Below, piece after piece: positions 32,401-39,467 of a stretch of DNA of 64,000 bases. The notes beneath the pieces are model-generated. The model was not told the origin of the DNA, did not search any database, and saw only the letters and a program-made list of their open reading frames with translations. Both the position numbers and the translations under genes were made by a program. Source of the DNA: Phycisphaerales bacterium. GTDB taxonomy: Bacteria > Planctomycetota > Phycisphaerae > Phycisphaerales > UBA1924. Within the stretch, counting starts at the first letter, position 1. Each line of letters starts with the position of its first letter. The stretch spans positions 1 to 64,000 of the forward strand of contig JARGPA010000004.1 in NCBI GenBank assembly GCA_029213305.1. The letters are read 5' to 3'.

Positions 32401-33330
32401 GCTGGATTTGTATACGAACGAAGCGGATCTGATTGGATGCCCTCGCAAATACTAATCCCGCCAACAGCACAAGTTGGTGATCATATTGGTGATAGCGCTT
32501 CGGTAGAAGAGGGATGGGCAGCTTTCGGTGCTCTCGATGATGATACCATTGCGTCATCAAGTGGTGCAGTTCATATGTTTAAGAGGGCAGGGCTCGGGGA
32601 TTGGGTTTTCCATTCTACGATTCTCTCTCCAACTACAACCAGTTCTGCAAGGTTTGGTTATTCTCTTGAATTGAGTAGGTCAGATCTTGGGTTGACACTC
32701 ATTGCAAGTTCAAGGTATGAACGAAATGGAACAGACAATAGTGTTGGTGCGGCGTTTGTCTTTGTTCTTGATGAGATATCGCTGCAATGGAATCTCATTC
32801 AGAGACTTGATCCAGAAATCATTACTACGAGCGTTCTTTACGGTACGGATGTTTCTGTTGATCACAACACGATTGCAGTTGGAGCACCATACCTACACGA
32901 TTCACCGATAAGGCCATCGGTTTGGTCAGGTGGCGCTGAAGTCTATAACCTAGACCAATCAATCGGACAGTTTGTTCGCAGAACCACTATCCGTCCACAG
33001 TCTAATCAGTGGGGTTCAAATAATGGATGGGGAAGTTCTGTAGGACTCTCAGGAGGAACTGTTTTTCTAGGGACTGAACTAGCAGATGGCGAGTTGTATG
33101 ATCCCGCGAATGTAAACCAGAACTATGGTGCGATGGTTGCGCATGACATTATTTGTGTTCCAGATTGTCCCGCAGATATGAATGGTGATGGCATTCTCAA
33201 CTTCTTTGATGTCAGTTTTTTTCTCTCTGCATTCAGTGCTCAAGACCCGATCGCAGACATCAATGGCGATGGGATCCTGAACTTCTTTGATGTCAGTGAG
33301 TTTCTTTCAGCTTTCTCCGCTGGGTGTTAA
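29443..33330 (+). CDS. Giant secreted FG-GAP repeat protein with dockerin-like tail
   Basis: 1295 residues. GTG start with AGGAGG 6 nt upstream; signal peptide about 1-29 (ends GSFAQ). Almost the whole protein consists of FG-GAP-type beta-propeller repeats of the pattern 'G-x-x-F-G-x-S-V/I ... G-x-x-L-A-V/I-G-A/S-P' (such as NRFGISVSIDGDKLAVGA), at least a dozen, in two blocks split by PECDMAMESDRI near residue 805. The C-terminus has two dockerin-like calcium repeats (MNGDGILNFFDVSFFL and INGDGILNFFDVSEFL) ending SAGC. Probably a surface or extracellular adhesion protein. No enzyme motif seen. Its last codons overlap the frame of the next gene, whose real start is later. Confidence 0.85.
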   Translation: MFGHHHQRFLRFQLAIYLLPIFCAGSFAQVQLSGSATHYRSLAADRNTGNEQLTILGMSTDPNTETTYFVCKSNSTQNCPTSDQLRVYIHNTTSNQWDYQTSIDHGRSVDIGCIAVEGDTIVIGRTFANFGEDGVDIYRRGISGQWTHESSLLPADNFPGNRFGISVSIDGDKLAVGASKDDPDDLTHAWEGKGSVYIYDRVNTTWSLTGRVSAADGSQGDEFGSSVAIKSTLSGWDLVVGSPDFSADSSGINEAGALYVFQNQAGQWNQTDQILHTIDSQISGDLGNSGIGFDGSIVAAIDFTDLHLFEINAQGELTPIGIWAGSSSIKDPVVVNRTVIIGDPQGGLDVSSGQSNVVLISEDQSNAWTESHYVTPAEIGPNANYGSALAFNGGVFLAGVPQFDGAGNNAGGIWSQSVVGNTYPSGLILEGQSDPFGNFGETIVANDEWVVVATPNTVRSCTPGASGSVRVYRLINGQWTLHQNIDPPTADTSHGFGSAISLDGNLLAVTIPQYFQAGDTDRFGAAIIYEFDGQQWIAIQFLEGTEFDQGFGDSIAISGNHLAIGIPDTPNGGSALLFERDISNRYQPFQTIQSNAVNNFDRFGSVLSMRADRLVIGSPLHNAETGFVVSWDFDTQTNSWVIGQEFTDPTLAAGSRFGSAIVQSSDFIGIGAPGSTVDPGRVLLFQQVSQGMNQANIITQPTSTTTNGFGASLAIHDHILLVGHDDPSSSEAHFMGFNGNNYQHLQTMSIPTGGAGALFGSSVAIGSNTLFVGAPNESTSLAENAGAVHLFETELRFTVPECDMAMESDRIQWIEDDFVNGSEWFGYSIEVDEGYAITGVPFEHHSFVYDGVPINGNNAGKATIYERTGLRTWTPVASFRGGNFDDPIGTSHTDWLGISVDIEKTTGVAGGPQGRFENQPVATGSVRVYERGSGGWGETIEIFPSGTGVQGAPIIREFGTSVDLDSSANMIAIGAPNSAIGVTGTGAGFVYERSGSDWMPSQILIPPTAQVGDHIGDSASVEEGWAAFGALDDDTIASSSGAVHMFKRAGLGDWVFHSTILSPTTTSSARFGYSLELSRSDLGLTLIASSRYERNGTDNSVGAAFVFVLDEISLQWNLIQRLDPEIITTSVLYGTDVSVDHNTIAVGAPYLHDSPIRPSVWSGGAEVYNLDQSIGQFVRRTTIRPQSNQWGSNNGWGSSVGLSGGTVFLGTELADGELYDPANVNQNYGAMVAHDIICVPDCPADMNGDGILNFFDVSFFLSAFSAQDPIADINGDGILNFFDVSEFLSAFSAGC

Positions 33331-33389
33331 AAATGTTATCCCGATTAGTTCATCTTGTTCTCGCCATGTTTCCTAATAGGAGGTACAAC

Positions 33390-35078
33390 ATGCGTTTGTT
33401 TACAACAGTAGTTATTTCTCTCGCGTCGATCACGGCACAAGGTCAGGTTGAATCTGATCAATGCGCAAAGAGTGGGATAAATCTTTCGCATATTCCAAGC
33501 TGGACTCCCAGTTGGCCGTTCGTTGATGCGTTTAAAATCCGTCGGCCGTGGTTATCTAGTCCATTGGATCGCTCAGTTTGGGATGATGGACAACCAATCT
33601 CAACTGACACAGATGGTTGGGTCAACTCCATCCTCCCAGGGCAACTGATACACACGCTCATCTACGACAATGCGCAGGGGCATTATCCAAGTGGCCGATA
33701 TGTCGTTTTGTATGAAGGGCAAGGGCAACTCAACTTAAGAGGTGATGCACAAATCGTTTCAGATACTCCAGGTCGGATGGAAGTTGACATAACCCCTACG
33801 AATGGGGGGATTCATTTTGAAGTTCTCACAACTGATCCTCAAGACCACATCCGGAATATTCGTTTGATCATGCCTGGGTTTGAAGATACATATCAAGAGC
33901 ATCCTTTTCATCCTGCGTTTCTTGAGTCTCTCAGTTCGTTTGATGTGATCCGATTTATGGATTGGCAGAATACAAACGGAACTTGGAATCATGATTGGAC
34001 AATGCGTCCTGAGCTAAACGATGCAGGATTTAGTCTCGGACTTGGAGTCCCTATAGAAATAATGGTGGATCTGTGTAATGAGCTCGATGCAGATCCATGG
34101 TTCTGTATGTCGCATCTCTTCGATGATACTTATGTTGACAATTTTGCATCGGTTGTTGCGTCAAGACTCGAACCTGAACGCACTGTCTATGTCGAACATT
34201 CGAATGAAGTATGGAACTCGATTTTTAATCAGTATCAATATGCAGTGCAAAGATCAGCAGAACTTGGAATACCAGGCGGAGATGATTTTCAACGAGCGAT
34301 GAGATACCACTCGCAGAGAAGTGTTGAGATCTTTGATCTCTGGGATGATCACTTCAATCAAGATCAACTTGTGCGAGTGATGGGAGGATGGCAAGTGAAT
34401 ACTTGGGTGACAGAGCAGTTGCTCGACTGGAACAATGCCTTCGAACATACAGATGTGTTTGCAACTGCTCCATACTTTGGTGGATCACTCGGTGTCGGGA
34501 ACAACCCCAACCAAACACTTCAAATGACTCCGGATGAAATCATTGATGTTTGTTTAGAAGATATTGCGGCTCAACGCATACGCACAAGCGCACAGATCAC
34601 CACTCTTGAGCAGTACGACGGAGTTGATTTGGTTGCATATGAAAGCGGACAACACATTGTCGGTGTTGGAGGACAATGGACAAACAATGCAGAGTTGACA
34701 GCTTTGTTTCATGAAGTGAATCGTCATCCAAGGATGTACGACGCGTACATCGACGATATTTCTGGATGGAACGAGATAGGAGGCGGGTTGATGACCGCGT
34801 TCGCGTCCTGTCAAACACCCTCTCGATATGGATCATGGGGTCTTCTTGAGTATCAAGATCAGCCATTGAGTGAAGCTCATAAGATGCGAGCATGGGTTGA
34901 TTTCAATACGAATCCTGCGGATTTCACAATGGATGGGCAACTCGATTTCTTCGATGTTTCCGCGTTTCTCGCAGCATTATCCATCCAAGATCAAAGTGCA
35001 GATATGAACTCTGATGGCGTATTTAACTTCTTTGATGTGAGTCAGTTTCTAATTGCGTTTGCAAAGCAGTGTTTGTAG
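33390..35078 (+). CDS. Secreted TIM-barrel-like protein with dockerin-like tail
   Basis: 562 residues from ATG 33390, chosen because AGGAGG lies 6 nt upstream and a signal peptide follows at once (MRLFTTVVISLASITAQGQ); the frame is open to 33324. The central part looks like a glycosidase-type barrel: SFDVIRFMDWQNTNG, then DPWFCMSHLFDD, then VEHSNEVWN (candidate acid/base Glu) and VAYESGQH (candidate second Glu). I recall similar planctomycete proteins labelled cellulose-binding, without proven activity. Two dockerin-like repeats end the protein (DFTMDGQLDFFDVSAFL, degenerate, and MNSDGVFNFFDVSQFL, ending QCL). It is 59 nt downstream of the FG-GAP gene, probably in one operon. Confidence 0.75.
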   Translation: MRLFTTVVISLASITAQGQVESDQCAKSGINLSHIPSWTPSWPFVDAFKIRRPWLSSPLDRSVWDDGQPISTDTDGWVNSILPGQLIHTLIYDNAQGHYPSGRYVVLYEGQGQLNLRGDAQIVSDTPGRMEVDITPTNGGIHFEVLTTDPQDHIRNIRLIMPGFEDTYQEHPFHPAFLESLSSFDVIRFMDWQNTNGTWNHDWTMRPELNDAGFSLGLGVPIEIMVDLCNELDADPWFCMSHLFDDTYVDNFASVVASRLEPERTVYVEHSNEVWNSIFNQYQYAVQRSAELGIPGGDDFQRAMRYHSQRSVEIFDLWDDHFNQDQLVRVMGGWQVNTWVTEQLLDWNNAFEHTDVFATAPYFGGSLGVGNNPNQTLQMTPDEIIDVCLEDIAAQRIRTSAQITTLEQYDGVDLVAYESGQHIVGVGGQWTNNAELTALFHEVNRHPRMYDAYIDDISGWNEIGGGLMTAFASCQTPSRYGSWGLLEYQDQPLSEAHKMRAWVDFNTNPADFTMDGQLDFFDVSAFLAALSIQDQSADMNSDGVFNFFDVSQFLIAFAKQCL

Positions 35079-35123
35079 ATCCCATGAATTAATCATATTC
35101 ATAAAGAAAAAACTGACCCAAGT

Positions 35124-35151
35124 TTGACAAAGTGCCGATAAGGGATATTGT
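35124..35151 (+). promoter_or_regulatory. Promoter of the lysW operon leader
   Basis: TTGACA (35124-35129) and TATTGT (35146-35151) are 16 nt apart. Transcription would start near 35158, two or so bases before the leader-peptide ATG at 35160, so the leader peptide may be translated leaderless. Confidence 0.6.
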
Positions 35152-35159
35152 TAACCCAC

Positions 35160-35258
35160 ATGATCAATATGCAGTCCAACTTGAAATCAGCTAAATCGAA
35201 AGCTAAAGACGCAAAACGCGTTGGGGCTGCGACATTGGCTGAGGGCTGTTTGAGGTAA
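35160..35258 (+). CDS. Lysine-rich leader peptide of the lysW operon
   Basis: A 32-codon frame (ATG 35160; a second in-frame ATG at 35169) whose middle holds five AAA lysine codons within eleven codons (35184-35216): L-K-S-A-K-S-K-A-K-D-A-K-R. It lies between a sigma70-type promoter and a strong terminator directly before lysW. This matches the layout of attenuator leader peptides, in which ribosome stalling at codons of the end product prevents termination. Only two arginine codons are present, so the sensed amino acid is more likely lysine. The peptide itself probably has no function. No good ribosome site precedes either ATG. Confidence 0.62.
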   Translation: MINMQSNLKSAKSKAKDAKRVGAATLAEGCLR

Positions 35259-35319
35259 CTATCTCAAATCAGAATCAGAGTCAAACGCACCCCTGAACGG
35301 TTTTCAGGGGTGTTTTTTT
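35171..35319 (+). promoter_or_regulatory. Putative lysine transcription attenuator
   Basis: Mutually exclusive pairings can be drawn. Segment 1 (GCAGTCCAA, 35171-35179) pairs with segment 2 (TTGGGGCTGC, 35221-35230) with one bulge. Segment 2 (GGGGCTGCG, 35223-35231) pairs instead with segment 3 (CGCACCCC, 35286-35293), also with one bulge. Segment 3 is the 5' arm of the terminator (35288-35319). Lys codons lie just after segment 1, so a ribosome stalled there would cover segment 1 and free segment 2 to act as antiterminator. A TTTGAG/CTCAAA hairpin (35249-35268) spans the leader stop codon. Confidence 0.55.
35288..35319 (+). terminator. Rho-independent terminator/attenuator before lysW
   Basis: Perfect 10-bp stem CACCCCTGAA (35288-35297) / TTCAGGGGTG (35303-35312), 5-nt loop, seven T. 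It stands 41 nt before the lysW start with no other gene between, as expected of an attenuator. Confidence 0.9.
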
Positions 35320-35359
35320 ATGTCAATCAGAAATGAAACGAAGTTAGAAGGAAATCAAC

Positions 35360-35545
35360 ATGTCACAAACAGCAACAATCCAAGCAGTATGTCCAGAATG
35401 TGCCGGCGAAGTTCAGTTCGATCGTCCGCCTTTGAATGGGGAAGTCGTCCGATGCTCACAATGCGTCTCTGAGCTCGAAGTTATCTCGCGTGAACCAATC
35501 TTGCTTGAGCTTGCACCTGAAGTTGAAGAAGACTGGGGCGAGTAA
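35360..35545 (+). CDS. lysW: LysW amino-group carrier protein
   Basis: 61 residues; AAGGA precedes the ATG. LysW carries alpha-aminoadipate (or glutamate) on the side chain of its C-terminal glutamate during lysine (or arginine) synthesis. The zinc-finger cysteines are C11-x2-C14 and C32-x2-C35. The acidic tail ends in the diagnostic EEDWGE with the carrier glutamate E61 as last residue. First gene of the operon lysW-X-Y-Z-K, after the attenuator. Acidic, cytosolic. Confidence 0.95.
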   Translation: MSQTATIQAVCPECAGEVQFDRPPLNGEVVRCSQCVSELEVISREPILLELAPEVEEDWGE

Positions 35546-35575
35546 ATCCGACTCTGAAAGCACGAGGTACATCAC

Positions 35576-36472
35576 ATGCGTATTGCAATGACCTACACCC
35601 GGATTCGGCCTGAAGAGCGATTCCTACTCGATGAGTTTGCTCGACAAGGAGTTGACATATCCCCAGTGGATATCCGTCAACATGTATTTAATCCAGCAGA
35701 TTCGTCTGAATGGGATAAATACGACGCGGTTTTTGATCGATCAATGAGTCTTTCCAACTCGATCACATCTTTGAGTATATTGGAAGGGTTTGGTCTTCGA
35801 TGCGTCAATTCACTGAAAGCAGTCGAGCTCTGTTCAGATAAGCTGTTCACATCGATTGCACTGAGTCGAGCAGGGATTGCAACTCCAGAAGTGCGAGTCG
35901 CGACAACTTACCAATCAGGGCTCGATGCGATTGAAGAGATTGGTTATCCCGCTGTTCTCAAGCCAATTGTCGGTTCTTGGGGGAGATTAGTCTCGAGGGT
36001 CAATGATCGAGACGCAGCAGAAGCAATACTCGAACATCGTGAGACACTTGGGTCAGTCCAGCAAAAGGTGATGTATGTCCAAGAGTTCATCGAAAAGCCT
36101 GATCGAGATCTGAGAGTATTTGTCGTCGGCGGAGAACCGATCGCGGCGATCGCTCGATCGAGTGAGCATTGGGTGACGAATACTGCGCGCGGGGCCACCG
36201 CAGAGGGTGTTGAGCTCACTGATGAACTATGTGATATATCGAGACAGGCAGCACAAGTTACAGGTGCAGATGTCGTTGCTGTTGATTTGCTCGAATGCCC
36301 ACGCAGGGGATTACTCGTAAACGAAATGAACCATTCGATGGAGTTTCGTAACTCGATGGATGTTACCGGCGTTAACATCGCAAGCGTGGTTGTAGAGCAC
36401 ATAGCAGAGATTGCACAAAATCTTGGTAGACATGATTCGATGAATCACTCGCAGGGAGTTGTTGTTGTATGA
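35576..36472 (+). CDS. lysX: LysX, LysW--alpha-aminoadipate ligase
   Basis: 298 residues, ATP-grasp RimK-like. It joins the alpha-amino group of aminoadipate (LysX) or glutamate (ArgX) to the C-terminal Glu of LysW using ATP. Seen: TRIRPEERFL start, ATP-site segment VLKPIVGSWGRLVSRV near 125-140, HWVTNTARGA, and the metal/substrate motif NEMNHSMEFRNSMDVTGVN. As I remember it, the lysine-type Thermus LysX has nearly the same NHTMEFKNS motif, which favours aminoadipate over glutamate. GAGG lies before the ATG; the stop overlaps the lysY start (ATGA). Confidence 0.93.
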   Translation: MRIAMTYTRIRPEERFLLDEFARQGVDISPVDIRQHVFNPADSSEWDKYDAVFDRSMSLSNSITSLSILEGFGLRCVNSLKAVELCSDKLFTSIALSRAGIATPEVRVATTYQSGLDAIEEIGYPAVLKPIVGSWGRLVSRVNDRDAAEAILEHRETLGSVQQKVMYVQEFIEKPDRDLRVFVVGGEPIAAIARSSEHWVTNTARGATAEGVELTDELCDISRQAAQVTGADVVAVDLLECPRRGLLVNEMNHSMEFRNSMDVTGVNIASVVVEHIAEIAQNLGRHDSMNHSQGVVVV

Positions 36473-37497
36473 GTATTCGAGCATCAATCATCGGGGGGAG
36501 TGGGTACACAGGGGGGGAGTTGCTTCGTTTGCTCCATTCACATCCAGAGATGGAGATCGGGCAAGTCACATCGAGAAAACTCAAGGGTCATCCAGTGTTT
36601 CGCTCACATCCCAACCTACGCGGACATGTCAGCACGATGTACTGCACGCCGGATGAAGTGGAGCCTTGTGATGTACTATTTCTGTGTATGCCTCATGGGA
36701 AAGCAGCGGGTGAGATTGAAAGATGGAGTACGTTGGCGCCATTGATTGTTGATCTCTCTGCAGATTTTCGATTAAATGATCCTGAAAACTATGAATCTTG
36801 GTATGGAGAATCGCACCCTAATCCTCAAATGCTTCAGCAGTCTGTTTATGGGTTGCCAGAGATTAACAGAGATCAGATGCGAGGCGCAAAGCTGATATCT
36901 GGAGTTGGTTGCAACGCGACAGCGATGATTACCGCGCTCAAGCCGATGGCTCAAGCAGGGCTCATTCGCAGCGCTATCGCTGATATTAAAGTTGGTTCCT
37001 CAGAAGCAGGTGCAGATCCAAGCGCAGGGTCACATCACCCTGTGCGTGCAAGAACAGTTCGTACTTATAGTGTTTCAGGACATCGACATATTGCTGAAGT
37101 TCAACAAGCACTTGGAGAGATTGATATCGACGCGACTGTCTCTGCCGTCGATATGGTGCGAGGCGTGCTTTGTACTGTTCATGTCACTCCAACAGAACCA
37201 GTTGATCAGAAAACACTTTGGGGGCTTTTCCGATCTACTTACGGTGATGAACCGTTTGTCAGAATCGTCGCAGATCGGAGTGGTCCAAATCGATTCCCAG
37301 ATCCACGAGTATTAGTTGGATCAAATCATGTCGATGTAGGATTTTCTGTCGATGAACGATCAGGGAGAGTAGTGTTGCTGAGCGCGATCGATAACTTGAT
37401 GAAGGGATCTGCAGGCTCTGCGATCCAAGCAATGAATGTGGCCCTTGGATTTCCAGAAACGACCGGGCTCGGGTTCCCGGGTCTCCATCCAGCATAA
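36469..37497 (+). CDS. lysY: LysY, LysW-aminoadipate 6-phosphate reductase
   Basis: 342 residues, homologous to ArgC. It reduces the LysW-bound aminoadipyl phosphate to the semialdehyde with NADPH. The NADP loop IIGGSGYTGGELLRLL is at 7-22; the catalytic cysteine is C148 in SGVGCNATAMI; the substrate-site segments SSEAGADPSAGSHHPVR and DNLMKGSAGSAIQAMN are intact. It is coupled to lysX by an ATGA overlap and followed by lysZ after 15 nt. It could alternatively serve arginine in a bifunctional pathway. Confidence 0.93.
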   Translation: MSIRASIIGGSGYTGGELLRLLHSHPEMEIGQVTSRKLKGHPVFRSHPNLRGHVSTMYCTPDEVEPCDVLFLCMPHGKAAGEIERWSTLAPLIVDLSADFRLNDPENYESWYGESHPNPQMLQQSVYGLPEINRDQMRGAKLISGVGCNATAMITALKPMAQAGLIRSAIADIKVGSSEAGADPSAGSHHPVRARTVRTYSVSGHRHIAEVQQALGEIDIDATVSAVDMVRGVLCTVHVTPTEPVDQKTLWGLFRSTYGDEPFVRIVADRSGPNRFPDPRVLVGSNHVDVGFSVDERSGRVVLLSAIDNLMKGSAGSAIQAMNVALGFPETTGLGFPGLHPA

Positions 37498-37512: not shown

Positions 37513-38352
37513 ATGAGCACAGAAAACTACACAGTCGTAATCAAAGTCGGAGGCGGAGAGGGTATTGATCCCACAATGCTCAGCAAGGAAATCGCAGAGC
37601 TCACTGAAGCAGGCACAAGAGTGGTGCTTGTCCATGGGGGATCACACGATACCAATGTACTCGCAGAGGCGCTTGGGTACCCCGCACAAACCATCAAAAG
37701 CCCAAGCGGGCACGAGTCGCGAAGGACAGATCGCAAGACGCTCGAAATCTTTATGATGGCGTATTGTGGAAGTGTCAATAAGACGATTGTCGAGGATCTT
37801 CGTAGGCACGGGGTTGACTCAGTAGGGCTCAGCGGCATTGACGCCGGGATCTGGGTAGGTCAACGAAAGGGTGCAATCCGTGCGATAGAAGACGGTCGAA
37901 CTGTACTCATCCGTGATGATCTCTCAGGGCGAGTTGAGTCTGTGAATGGAGATTTTATTGAGTATCTTCTTAGCACAGGAAAAGTCCCTGTGTTGACACC
38001 GCCTGCAGTTACACCCGATGGTATTGCGATCAATGTTGATGCAGATCGAGCAGCTGCTGCAACTGCTGTTGCGATCGGGGCTGATGAGCTGCTTTTGCTT
38101 TCAAATGTTTCTGGGCTCTACCTAGATCATCATGATCCAGAATCACTTATTGAACAAGTAGATGCGGATTCTCTTGATGAAGCAAGATCCGCTGCGAAGG
38201 GGCGAATGAAGAATAAGGTTCTCGCTGCAGAAGAAGCACTCACAGGTGGAGTCTCTCGAGTTGTCATCGGATCTGCAGGCGTTGATCGTCCGATCGAGTA
38301 TGCGAGGGTTCAAAATGGCGGCACTGTATTCTCTCACGGGGTTACTGCATGA
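37513..38352 (+). CDS. lysZ: LysZ, LysW-aminoadipate kinase
   Basis: 279 residues, amino acid kinase family, related to ArgB. It phosphorylates the side-chain carboxylate of LysW-bound aminoadipate. N-terminal phosphate-binding VVIKVGGGEGI, the VLVHGGSHDTN glycine loop and the NVDADRAAAATAVAIGAD ATP-site region are all present. The GHESRRTDRKTLEIF segment (basic, contacts acidic LysW in known LysZ) supports LysZ over ordinary ArgB. The stop overlaps the lysK start (ATGA). Confidence 0.93.
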   Translation: MSTENYTVVIKVGGGEGIDPTMLSKEIAELTEAGTRVVLVHGGSHDTNVLAEALGYPAQTIKSPSGHESRRTDRKTLEIFMMAYCGSVNKTIVEDLRRHGVDSVGLSGIDAGIWVGQRKGAIRAIEDGRTVLIRDDLSGRVESVNGDFIEYLLSTGKVPVLTPPAVTPDGIAINVDADRAAAATAVAIGADELLLLSNVSGLYLDHHDPESLIEQVDADSLDEARSAAKGRMKNKVLAAEEALTGGVSRVVIGSAGVDRPIEYARVQNGGTVFSHGVTA

Positions 38353-39467
38353 GTCAGAATCCAGATCAATCAATCGAAGAGCAAGTGCTCATTGATCTTG
38401 TTTCAACTCCCAGTTTATCTGGTGAAGAGGCAAACGCAGCTCAGGTGTTTTCTCGTTACGCAAACCAACTCGGGTACAAAGCATCGATTGATCAGGTGGG
38501 GAATGCAATTGCAGATCGTGGAGAGACTGAGTGTCCAAAACGCCATATTGTGTTGTTAGGACATATCGATACCGTACCAGGGGATATCCCTGTTCGTGTC
38601 GAAGACAGAGTTCTTTATGGGCGCGGATCAGTCGACGCAAAGGGCCCACTCGCTGCAATGCTTGTTGCAGCATCTCGCATTGAGGTTCCTGAGCAAGTAC
38701 GCGTTTCCGTTGTTGCAGCAGTCGGGGAAGAAGCCGCAGAATCTATCGGAGCAAATCACATTGTTCATCAATGGAATCCTGACGCATGCATCATTGGAGA
38801 GCCAAGTGGGTGGGATGGGGTCACACTCGGATACAAAGGGCGACTTCTCGCGGATGTTGTCGTTGTTTCTAGTAATGCTCATTCCGCAGGACCAGATGGA
38901 TCAGCGAGTGATGATCTATTCACATGGTGGACGCAATGTTTGTCTCAATTAGGCGAGATCAACAGCCAGATTAGCTCAGTAATTAATCAAATCCAATCAA
39001 CGATCCTGAATCTAGAAACACAGAATGATGGTTTCGAAGAGAAGGCTTTAATGACGATTGGTTTTCGTCTCCCAACTACTCATTCACCTGAGGATGTTCA
39101 AGAACTGCTCAATAGCTGTGTCATACCTGGAATGAAGATTAGTTATTCAGGTTCTATAGAAGCATCCATGACGGGTCGCAATGACGCGGTTGTTCGATCA
39201 ATCTCAGCTGCAATACGAAGTAATGGCGGGCGCCCAATGCCCAAGAAAAAAACTGGGACTGCGGATCTGAATGTAGTCGCGCCAATATGGGGGTGCCCAA
39301 TTGCGGCGTATGGTCCTGGTGACAGTTCGTTGGATCATACTCCGAATGAGCATATTCATCTCGATGAACTAAGTAAGTCTGTAGATGTACTCGAAGTTGC
39401 GATAAAGAACTTGATAGAAGAGTTGCTTGATCAAGAAGTTGTTCAAACTAAAAGTGAAAGCTGTTAA
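38349..39467 (+). CDS. lysK: LysK, LysW-lysine hydrolase (M20 family)
   Basis: 372 residues, zinc peptidase family M20. It releases lysine (or ornithine) from LysW at the end of the pathway. Metal and catalytic motifs in order: LLGHIDTVPG, GRGSVDAKGPLAAM, GEEAAES, IGEPSG, and DHTPNEHIHLDE at the C-terminus. It ends the operon; its stop overlaps by 4 nt that of the convergent CBS gene. The aminotransferase LysJ, needed between LysY and LysK, is not in the window; a general ArgD-type enzyme elsewhere would have to do that step. Confidence 0.92.
   Translation: MSQNPDQSIEEQVLIDLVSTPSLSGEEANAAQVFSRYANQLGYKASIDQVGNAIADRGETECPKRHIVLLGHIDTVPGDIPVRVEDRVLYGRGSVDAKGPLAAMLVAASRIEVPEQVRVSVVAAVGEEAAESIGANHIVHQWNPDACIIGEPSGWDGVTLGYKGRLLADVVVVSSNAHSAGPDGSASDDLFTWWTQCLSQLGEINSQISSVINQIQSTILNLETQNDGFEEKALMTIGFRLPTTHSPEDVQELLNSCVIPGMKISYSGSIEASMTGRNDAVVRSISAAIRSNGGRPMPKKKTGTADLNVVAPIWGCPIAAYGPGDSSLDHTPNEHIHLDELSKSVDVLEVAIKNLIEELLDQEVVQTKSESC

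Follow-up and report, generated by a model that had tools for sequence, protein, structure and literature searches.

The window (the whole stretch of 64,000 nucleotides that was analysed) carries a small lysine-coding frame, a terminator and a promoter-like site, all within 35124-35319 and ahead of the genes lysW, lysX, argC/lysY, lysZ and lysK (Table 1). This leader occupies the gap between lysW, at 35360, and the upstream gene at 33324-35078, the product of which harbors a dockerin-like (GC-type) domain at residues 531-583. The models over cut-off for lysZ and lysK are of the aminoadipate type and the lysine type, respectively, and the genome encodes tRNA-Lys genes with both TTT and CTT. In this genome (G000), the assembly of which is 92% complete, no lysA over cut-off, no match to homocitrate synthase at E 1e-10 and no homoaconitase at E 1e-80 were found, and a single HMGL-like protein is encoded (C20:72907). 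The homocitrate synthase model was over cut-off in 0/25 genomes tested, one of which reached 286.6 bits.

Table 1. Features of the leader region and of the downstream lysine genes, with coordinates in the window
Feature	Position	Strand	Basis
Sigma-70-type promoter-like site	35124-35151	+	TTGACA (35124-35129), 16-nt spacer, TATTGT (35146-35151)
Expected transcription start region	35152-35160	+	Predicted from the position after the -10 box
Leader peptide frame	35160-35258	+	ATG 35160, TAA end 35258, 32 codons plus stop
Putative regulatory lysine codons, five AAA in eleven codons	35184-35216	+	AAA at 35184, 35193, 35199, 35205, 35214
Segment 1 core GACGC, tip of leader hairpin	35208-35212	+	Folds, alignment, pairing
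Segment 2, GCGTTGGGGCTGCG	35218-35231	+	Able to pair with segment 1 or segment 3
Segment 3, CGCACCCCTGAACG	35286-35299	+	Putative antiterminator partner; includes terminator 5' arm
Intrinsic terminator	35287-35319	+	Stem 35287-35313, then T-run
Shine-Dalgarno-like AAGG of lysW	35348-35351	+	Read from the sequence
lysW, amino-group carrier protein	35360-35545	+	TIGR01206, 56.3 bits (cut-off 53.2)
lysX	35576-36472	+	TIGR02144, 318.1 bits (cut-off 275.6)
argC/lysY-type reductase	36469-37497	+	TIGR01850, 364.9 bits (cut-off 233.6)
lysZ, [LysW]-aminoadipate kinase	37513-38352	+	NF010659, 329.8 bits (cut-off 223)
lysK, [LysW]-lysine hydrolase	38349-39467	+	NF003367, 406 bits (cut-off 363)

A first-pass annotation of the stretch had listed, in this order, a promoter, a frame of 32 codons in which five AAA fall within eleven codons, a terminator and lysW; the sequence confirmed them all, the promoter as a promoter-like site. 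The leader peptide reads MINMQSNLKSAKSKAKDAKRVGAATLAEGCLR, and its lysines per 12 codons (locus L002) were matched by 0/200 dinucleotide shuffles of the upstream region. Folding of 35158-35320 gave -56.6 kcal/mol (z = -5.04), which none of 200 shuffles equalled. The TTGACA/TATTGT pair is the sole such match in 34500-36500, but the match alone is no proof of a promoter since shuffled versions of the stretch contain a mean of 2.9; terminator-like sites in the scanned stretch numbered 2, against 1.5 expected by shuffling.

Conservation of the leader and its codon choice

The closest lysX genes in named genomes belong to assemblies from metagenomes that are nearly all assigned to Phycisphaerales, Phycisphaerae or Phycisphaeraceae. 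At E 1e-45 or better, lysX was present in 91/163 genomes of the family of the window and in one genome of another family of the order (G081). Among the 90 loci first fetched, lysW was located in 89, including one with merely 55 nt upstream (L063), and 88 offered at least 150 nt of upstream sequence, 87 of them in the family of the window; G060 (no lysW in the 675 nt to the contig end) and G104 (none on the contig) yielded no upstream region. A leader was then defined, without reference to structure, as a frame of 10-90 codons with at least three lysine codons in 12. This rule was satisfied in 84/88 loci, compared with 10/88 on the antisense strand and 4/536 for other windows taken from these loci; when three or more AAA codons were required, the counts were 82/88, 3/88 and 0/536. 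The small frame and its lysine codons, whose persistence in relatives had been put forward as a check on the initial reading, are thus kept in 84/88. Lysine enrichment reached p 0.05 against dinucleotide shuffles in 82/87 loci. Inspected by eye, three of the loci missed by the rule (L034, L082, L083) do carry a leader, each containing two or three lysine codons, and the fourth (L066) is truncated at the contig end with its lysine run still visible. A leader with 5 AAA in 12 codons is also present in G046, a genome that stands outside all these counts.

Terminators in the relatives, namely a hairpin followed by T-rich sequence, were detected in 69/84 loci by a strict scan and in 81/84 by a looser one, which missed L027, L060 and L065; the lysW start of L065 was probably set too far upstream, placing its terminator beyond the scanned stretch. 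The largest group of loci discussed below, class A (43/84 leader loci, including the window), was chosen by eye on resemblance and is therefore selected for likeness. A terminator was found by the strict scan in 39 class-A loci, and in 31 of them it begins 27-33 nt past the leader stop. A class-A leader also precedes the operon of G081 (L005), in the other family of the same order, the lysX of which is 68% identical to that of the window; this suggests that operon and leader may have been acquired together by horizontal transfer.

A separate scan identified a promoter-like match in 49/84 relatives. In 25 of these 49, an in-frame ATG open to the lysine codons lies 7-10 nt past the -10 box (8 nt in the window). 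The remaining 24 have it at 1 or 11-47 nt, except for a single locus without any open in-frame ATG there. Upstream of the lysine codons and past the -10 box, the two alternative frames contain 4 ATGs over all 49 loci. The leader of the window and of many relatives is probably translated from a leaderless or nearly leaderless mRNA.

Codon usage sets the leaders apart from the genes that they precede. The lysine clusters of the 84 leaders contain 331 AAA and 16 AAG, and in the 39 loci for which lysX codons were counted, the leaders show a ratio of 159:11 against 17 AAA and 141 AAG in lysX (Fisher 2e-58, uncorrected for kinship). This A-bias is limited to lysine, since four-fold codons ending in A are not raised but rarer in leaders (35/1032) than in lysX (512/6536). 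According to decoding rules, a leader written with AAA would depend on a single isoacceptor, tRNA-Lys(UUU); alternatively, the bias could serve to maintain the fold of the region, or to prevent competing folds, with no codon-specific sensing. LysX itself is lysine-poor, with 3-7 lysine codons in the first 280 codons of 39 lysX genes of relatives.

Outside the family, 55 loci from named genomes were considered, 40 of them from outside Phycisphaerales and kin; a locus labelled Cyanobacteria (L100), which lies on the same contig as G053, was assigned to the kin, and one labelled Planctomycetota only (L112) to the other groups. Seven of the 40 had no lysW match and one (L132) a weak match on the other strand, so that 32 remained, three of them with less than 150 nt upstream. 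A lysine-rich leader beyond chance was absent from 30/32 of these lysW loci. The two exceptions (L124, L128) have 4 lysines in 12 codons (p <= 0.01 against shuffles) and merely 1 and 2 AAA; a spread of the leader in other phyla was rejected, as only 2/32 loci are lysine-rich beyond chance and neither is AAA-rich. In Ktedonobacteria, 12 loci of which were scanned, T-boxes were recognized upstream of lysW in L114 (514-789) and L123 (402-662), and the similar upstream peptides of other Ktedonobacteria loci may be sub-threshold T-boxes.

Alternative helices and the position of the lysine codons

Class-A leaders share a pattern similar to AAA-GACGC-loop-GCGTCCGGG, and further on the 5' arm of the terminator carries a match similar to CCCGGACGC, so that segment 1 resembles segment 3 and segment 2 resembles segment 4. 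The first-pass annotation had placed a 1:2 helix at 35171-35179:35221-35230; this helix can form (-12.2 kcal/mol) but is absent from the minimum-energy fold, and the conserved core instead joins GACGC (35208-35212) to GCGTT (35218-35222), at the apex of a hairpin spanning the leader frame. The annotated 2:3 pairing can form too, as part of a longer duplex between 35219-35231 and 35286-35299 (-16.8 kcal/mol) that joins CGUU-GGGG-UGCG to CGCA-CCCC-AACG. The lysine codons, said to lie just after segment 1, are located before and beside the conserved segment 1, from which it follows that a stalled ribosome would cover that segment.

Compensatory changes, also named beforehand as a check, are clear for 2:3 and weak for 1:2. 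In the window, 2:3 comprises 7/9 pairs in rigid register, or 12 pairs with one bulge per side. Over 27 distinct class-A loci the 2:3 pair count was 217 against 207.0 (sd 2.25) on permutation (0/20000), and over 69 loci of all classes the own duplexes averaged -24.25 against -18.67 kcal/mol (0/20000 permutations), both results being inflated by the kinship of the sequences. Alignment A1, which comprises 33 class-A rows after omission of near-duplicates and of five loci that align less well (L012, L050, L052, L054, L055) and is, like class A, chosen for similarity, has 5/9 2:3 pairs changed on both sides, in one cell each (shuffle mean 1.2, 0/500). Its 2:3 pairing reaches 90.5% and falls to 44.7-53.4% with a one-column slide; its covariation score, 0.166 against 0.156, is unremarkable (equalled by 55/500 shuffles). 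Individual loci illustrate these changes: all three segments are altered together in L015 (GACAC/GTGTC/GACAC), L012 and L020 have other segment 2 and 3 sequences that still form 9/9 pairs, and the altered segments 2 and 3 of L054 and L055 pair partially (7/9 and 8/9). Taken singly, 53/81 loci gave a shuffle p <= 0.05 for 2:3, the window giving 0.056. The 1:2 core is paired in 99.4% of A1 cells and nearly invariant, and its covariation is weakly supported because the core hardly varies (permutation, likewise inflated by kinship, 581/20000; both-side changes 13/500; pair types 123/500). In L017 and L019, one nucleotide fewer separates the lysine codon from segment 2, which is then read in another frame with the RNA segment kept, so that the RNA is conserved and not the peptide. 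Helix 2:3 would act as an antiterminator that excludes the terminator, and the paired changes argue that it is kept by compensatory change.

In the window, the whole leader frame forms a single long and imperfect hairpin of -33.7 kcal/mol (z -3.3), against -16.8 kcal/mol for the 2:3 duplex. Most of the class-A folds inspected are of this kind: the hairpin extends from close to the start codon of the frame to close to its stop, its 5' arm carries the lysine codons, and GACGC/GCGTC occupies the tip or its vicinity, a layout that would explain why the frame runs on past segment 2. Over 84 loci the mean z of leader-frame folding was -2.05, with values below 0 in 73 and below -2 in 38. On A1, RNAalifold recovered 9 pairs and no more, since alignment by sequence does not bring the two arms of this hairpin into register; the long hairpin thus rests on single-sequence folds. 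These folds suggest that the leader hairpin, formed first, may hold the switch off when no ribosome comes.

Spacing is constrained: the distance from segment 2 back to the lysine codon that precedes segment 1 is 13 nt in 31/33 rows and 12 nt in 2/33. With that codon in its A site, a ribosome would have its front edge at the start of segment 2, by the usual toeprint distances. The putative regulatory codons are so positioned that a stalled ribosome would cover segment 1 and free segment 2.

We modelled this situation by placing a ribosome at each codon of 81 loci and computing the upstream pairing of segment 3. Stalling at the best lysine codon of each locus gave a mean pairing of 0.77 (above 0.5 in 79/81), compared with 0.44 for non-lysine codons, a comparison of a best value with a mean that flatters lysine; stalling at the last lysine codon gave 0.63 (above 0.5 in 57/81). 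The values for non-lysine codons are low past the cluster and not before it; as stalls upstream of or within the cluster also free segment 2, the model does not single out the lysine codons. With no ribosome, the equilibrium model has segment 3 pairing upstream at a mean of 0.57 (above 0.5 in 51/81; window 0.56), so that default termination was not seen in this model over the 81 loci and a default-off state depends on the order of folding rather than on equilibrium.

Proposed mechanism and its rivals

We propose that a ribosome-mediated attenuator sensing lysyl-tRNA, probably tRNA-Lys(UUU), controls the lysWXYZK operon, a reading in which we have high confidence. The trp/his-type logic that the initial annotation had transposed to lysine is supported by the comparison across relatives. 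The comparison shows the component parts and how they are conserved, together with their codon choice, spacing and 2:3 covariation, and the leader with its rival hairpins very probably turns the lysine genes off when lysine is plentiful.

RNA polymerase would start within about two nucleotides of the leader ATG, and a ribosome would load at once and translate the lysine-rich frame. When lysine is scarce, this ribosome would wait at the AAA codons, above all at 35205, where its front edge, 13 nt ahead, would reach segment 2 at its start, with segment 1 covered; free segment 2 would pair with segment 3, no terminator would form and lysW would be transcribed. When lysine is plentiful, the ribosome would cross segments 1 and 2 to the stop, and helix 3:4 would form. 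It would also form if no ribosome came, the frame closing into a single hairpin that buries segment 2. Once 3:4 has formed, transcription would end near 35319.

Four other explanations were weighed. Attenuation might have another outcome, acting through lysW translation or through Rho-dependent instead of intrinsic termination, as could be thought from the three loci left without a terminator by the looser scan (L027, L060 and L065, the last with a probably misplaced lysW start) and from the mycobacterial cysteine leaders, which are described as devoid of terminators in sections of PMC1262725. This is very unlikely given the hairpin and T-rich sequence present in 81/84 loci, the strength of the window terminator and the position of the Shine-Dalgarno-like site of lysW, which stands outside it. 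Slightly less probable again is that the frame encodes a functional small basic peptide, with the terminator as the end of that gene. The motif KAKDA..V is indeed conserved across much of class A; however, the peptides of other classes have little in common except lysine, L017 and L019 retain the RNA segment in a shifted reading frame, and in most class-A folds the 3' portion of the frame complements its 5' portion.

We give even less credit to a lysine riboswitch (L-box) or a T-box controlling the operon, beside which the lysine frame would be incidental. Lysine genes elsewhere do use the L-box, as indicated in parts of PMC1262725, and a T-box precedes lysW in the two Ktedonobacteria loci, L114 and L123. 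Nevertheless, Rfam covariance models gave no match at gathering score anywhere in the window, nor in the sampled loci L002, L015, L030 and L056, so that a riboswitch and a T-box before lysW of the window were rejected; the region of about 200 nt is filled mostly by the frame and the terminator, and the conservation of lysine codons in 84/88 loci would not be that of an incidental frame. Least probable of all is that the long leader hairpin is a protein-binding RNA operator, with lysine codons that reflect ancestry: the frame does fold strongly (mean z of -2.05 across the 84 loci, < -2 in 38), as would suit such an element, but an operator would not be expected to show either the fixed spacing from lysine codon to segment 2 (31/33) or a choice of AAA that runs counter to lysX usage.

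Known attenuators and a candidate lysine regulon

The known cases of classical attenuation are mainly trp, his, leu, ilv, thr and phe, whereas the control known for lysine genes is mainly by riboswitches or T-boxes (partly from PMC1262725). The trp/his-type attenuators of proteobacteria, which PMC1262725 mentions, resemble the lysine leader by their leader peptide with clustered regulatory codons, alternative helices and intrinsic terminator before the first gene. The leader of the window differs in that it would sense lysine, in that segment 2 is inside the leader frame with the stop about 30 nt before the terminator, and in that the frame itself would be the 1:2 hairpin, with an apparently leaderless start. 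In 2005, Tsubouchi and colleagues reportedly described attenuation by a leader peptide at the Thermus thermophilus lysine cluster. That leader is also said to be lysine-coding and to serve the aminoadipate/LysW pathway, but it would precede a homocitrate synthase gene and not lysW, and it belongs to another phylum. T-boxes read uncharged tRNA; that of Ktedonobacteria precedes lysW too, but binds tRNA directly and involves no leader peptide. Leaderless starts are documented for two other attenuators: transcription of ilvBNC in Corynebacterium glutamicum begins one nucleotide from the leader start codon (PMC11857589), and mycobacterial polycysteine leaders have their start codon at the mRNA 5' end (Canestrari et al., 2020, cited in PMC9031893). 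These attenuators respond to other amino acids in another phylum, and the start of the lysine leader is predicted from sequence. No earlier report of a lysine attenuator in Planctomycetota was found in the open-access full texts searched, and PMC3356886 contains no leader or attenuation terms. Attenuators of this kind are known; several design features of the present one are new and, within the limits of the searches, so is its occurrence in this lineage.

The class-A core pattern was searched in the 163 family genomes, where it matched in 26, once each, 24 of these being lysW leaders by position; the reversed pattern gave 0 matches. A looser pattern (3 mismatches) gave 43 matches in 41/163 genomes, and 1 when reversed; five of its 3-mismatch matches lie outside leaders by position. 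In G142 (L159, G142:C11:39141) and G143 (L160, G143:C3:6777), a complete leader with terminator precedes a gene of the citrate synthase family. The encoded protein matches PF00285; its best NCBIfam model is that of citryl-CoA lyases, below cut-off, and its nearest solved structure is a citryl-CoA lyase. Close homologues (E <1e-100) occur in 11 genomes, all with lysX. Four of them directly follow a lysK-like gene (G033, G173, G174 and G104; lysK confirmed by tblastn), and six stand behind a lysine-coding frame of their own (G142, G143, G195, G118, G053, G151). In the last four of these the frame has 3 AAA in 12 codons, reached by 0, 9, 1 and 6 of 200 shuffles, respectively; no lysine-coding frame beyond chance was found for the homologue of G018.

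An HD protein and homoaconitase (TIGR00139 over cut-off in all three genomes) come next in G142, G143 and G033, with a PrpD-type protein further on (by Pfam for G143, by eye in the others). In G033, where the citrate-synthase-family gene directly follows lysK, an isocitrate/homoisocitrate-dehydrogenase-like gene lies between the homoaconitase and PrpD-type genes. All 24 genomes with any synthase-like homologue (E 1e-20) are among the 62/163 with homoaconitase (E 1e-80), a co-occurrence with a hypergeometric probability of 3e-12, uncorrected for kinship. The gene behind the lysine leader in G142 and G143 is a candidate homocitrate synthase, and its neighbors are candidates for the remaining steps of the aminoadipate route. 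Against this assignment, most lysX genomes have no synthase-like protein, and none was found in the window genome; moreover, 9/24 genomes with a synthase-like homologue are devoid of lysX, so that part of this family may serve something else. We only tentatively entertain, at somewhat short of an even chance, the wider reading that the leader marks a regulon, the citrate-synthase-family protein being a homocitrate synthase that replaces the usual DRE-TIM enzyme in some genomes and the leader reading only tRNA-Lys(UUU), by way of a codon that lysX itself avoids.

A family of covarying, probable lysine attenuators is now seen in Planctomycetota, in a family known mostly from metagenomes. Its fixed codon-to-helix distance, its codon choice opposite to that of lysX, its apparently leaderless start and its several segment classes offer natural experiments. 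As a regulon marker, the leader points to unassigned lysine-synthesis genes and, if the homocitrate synthase reading were true, a new route into lysine would have been exposed by the regulon of an attenuator.
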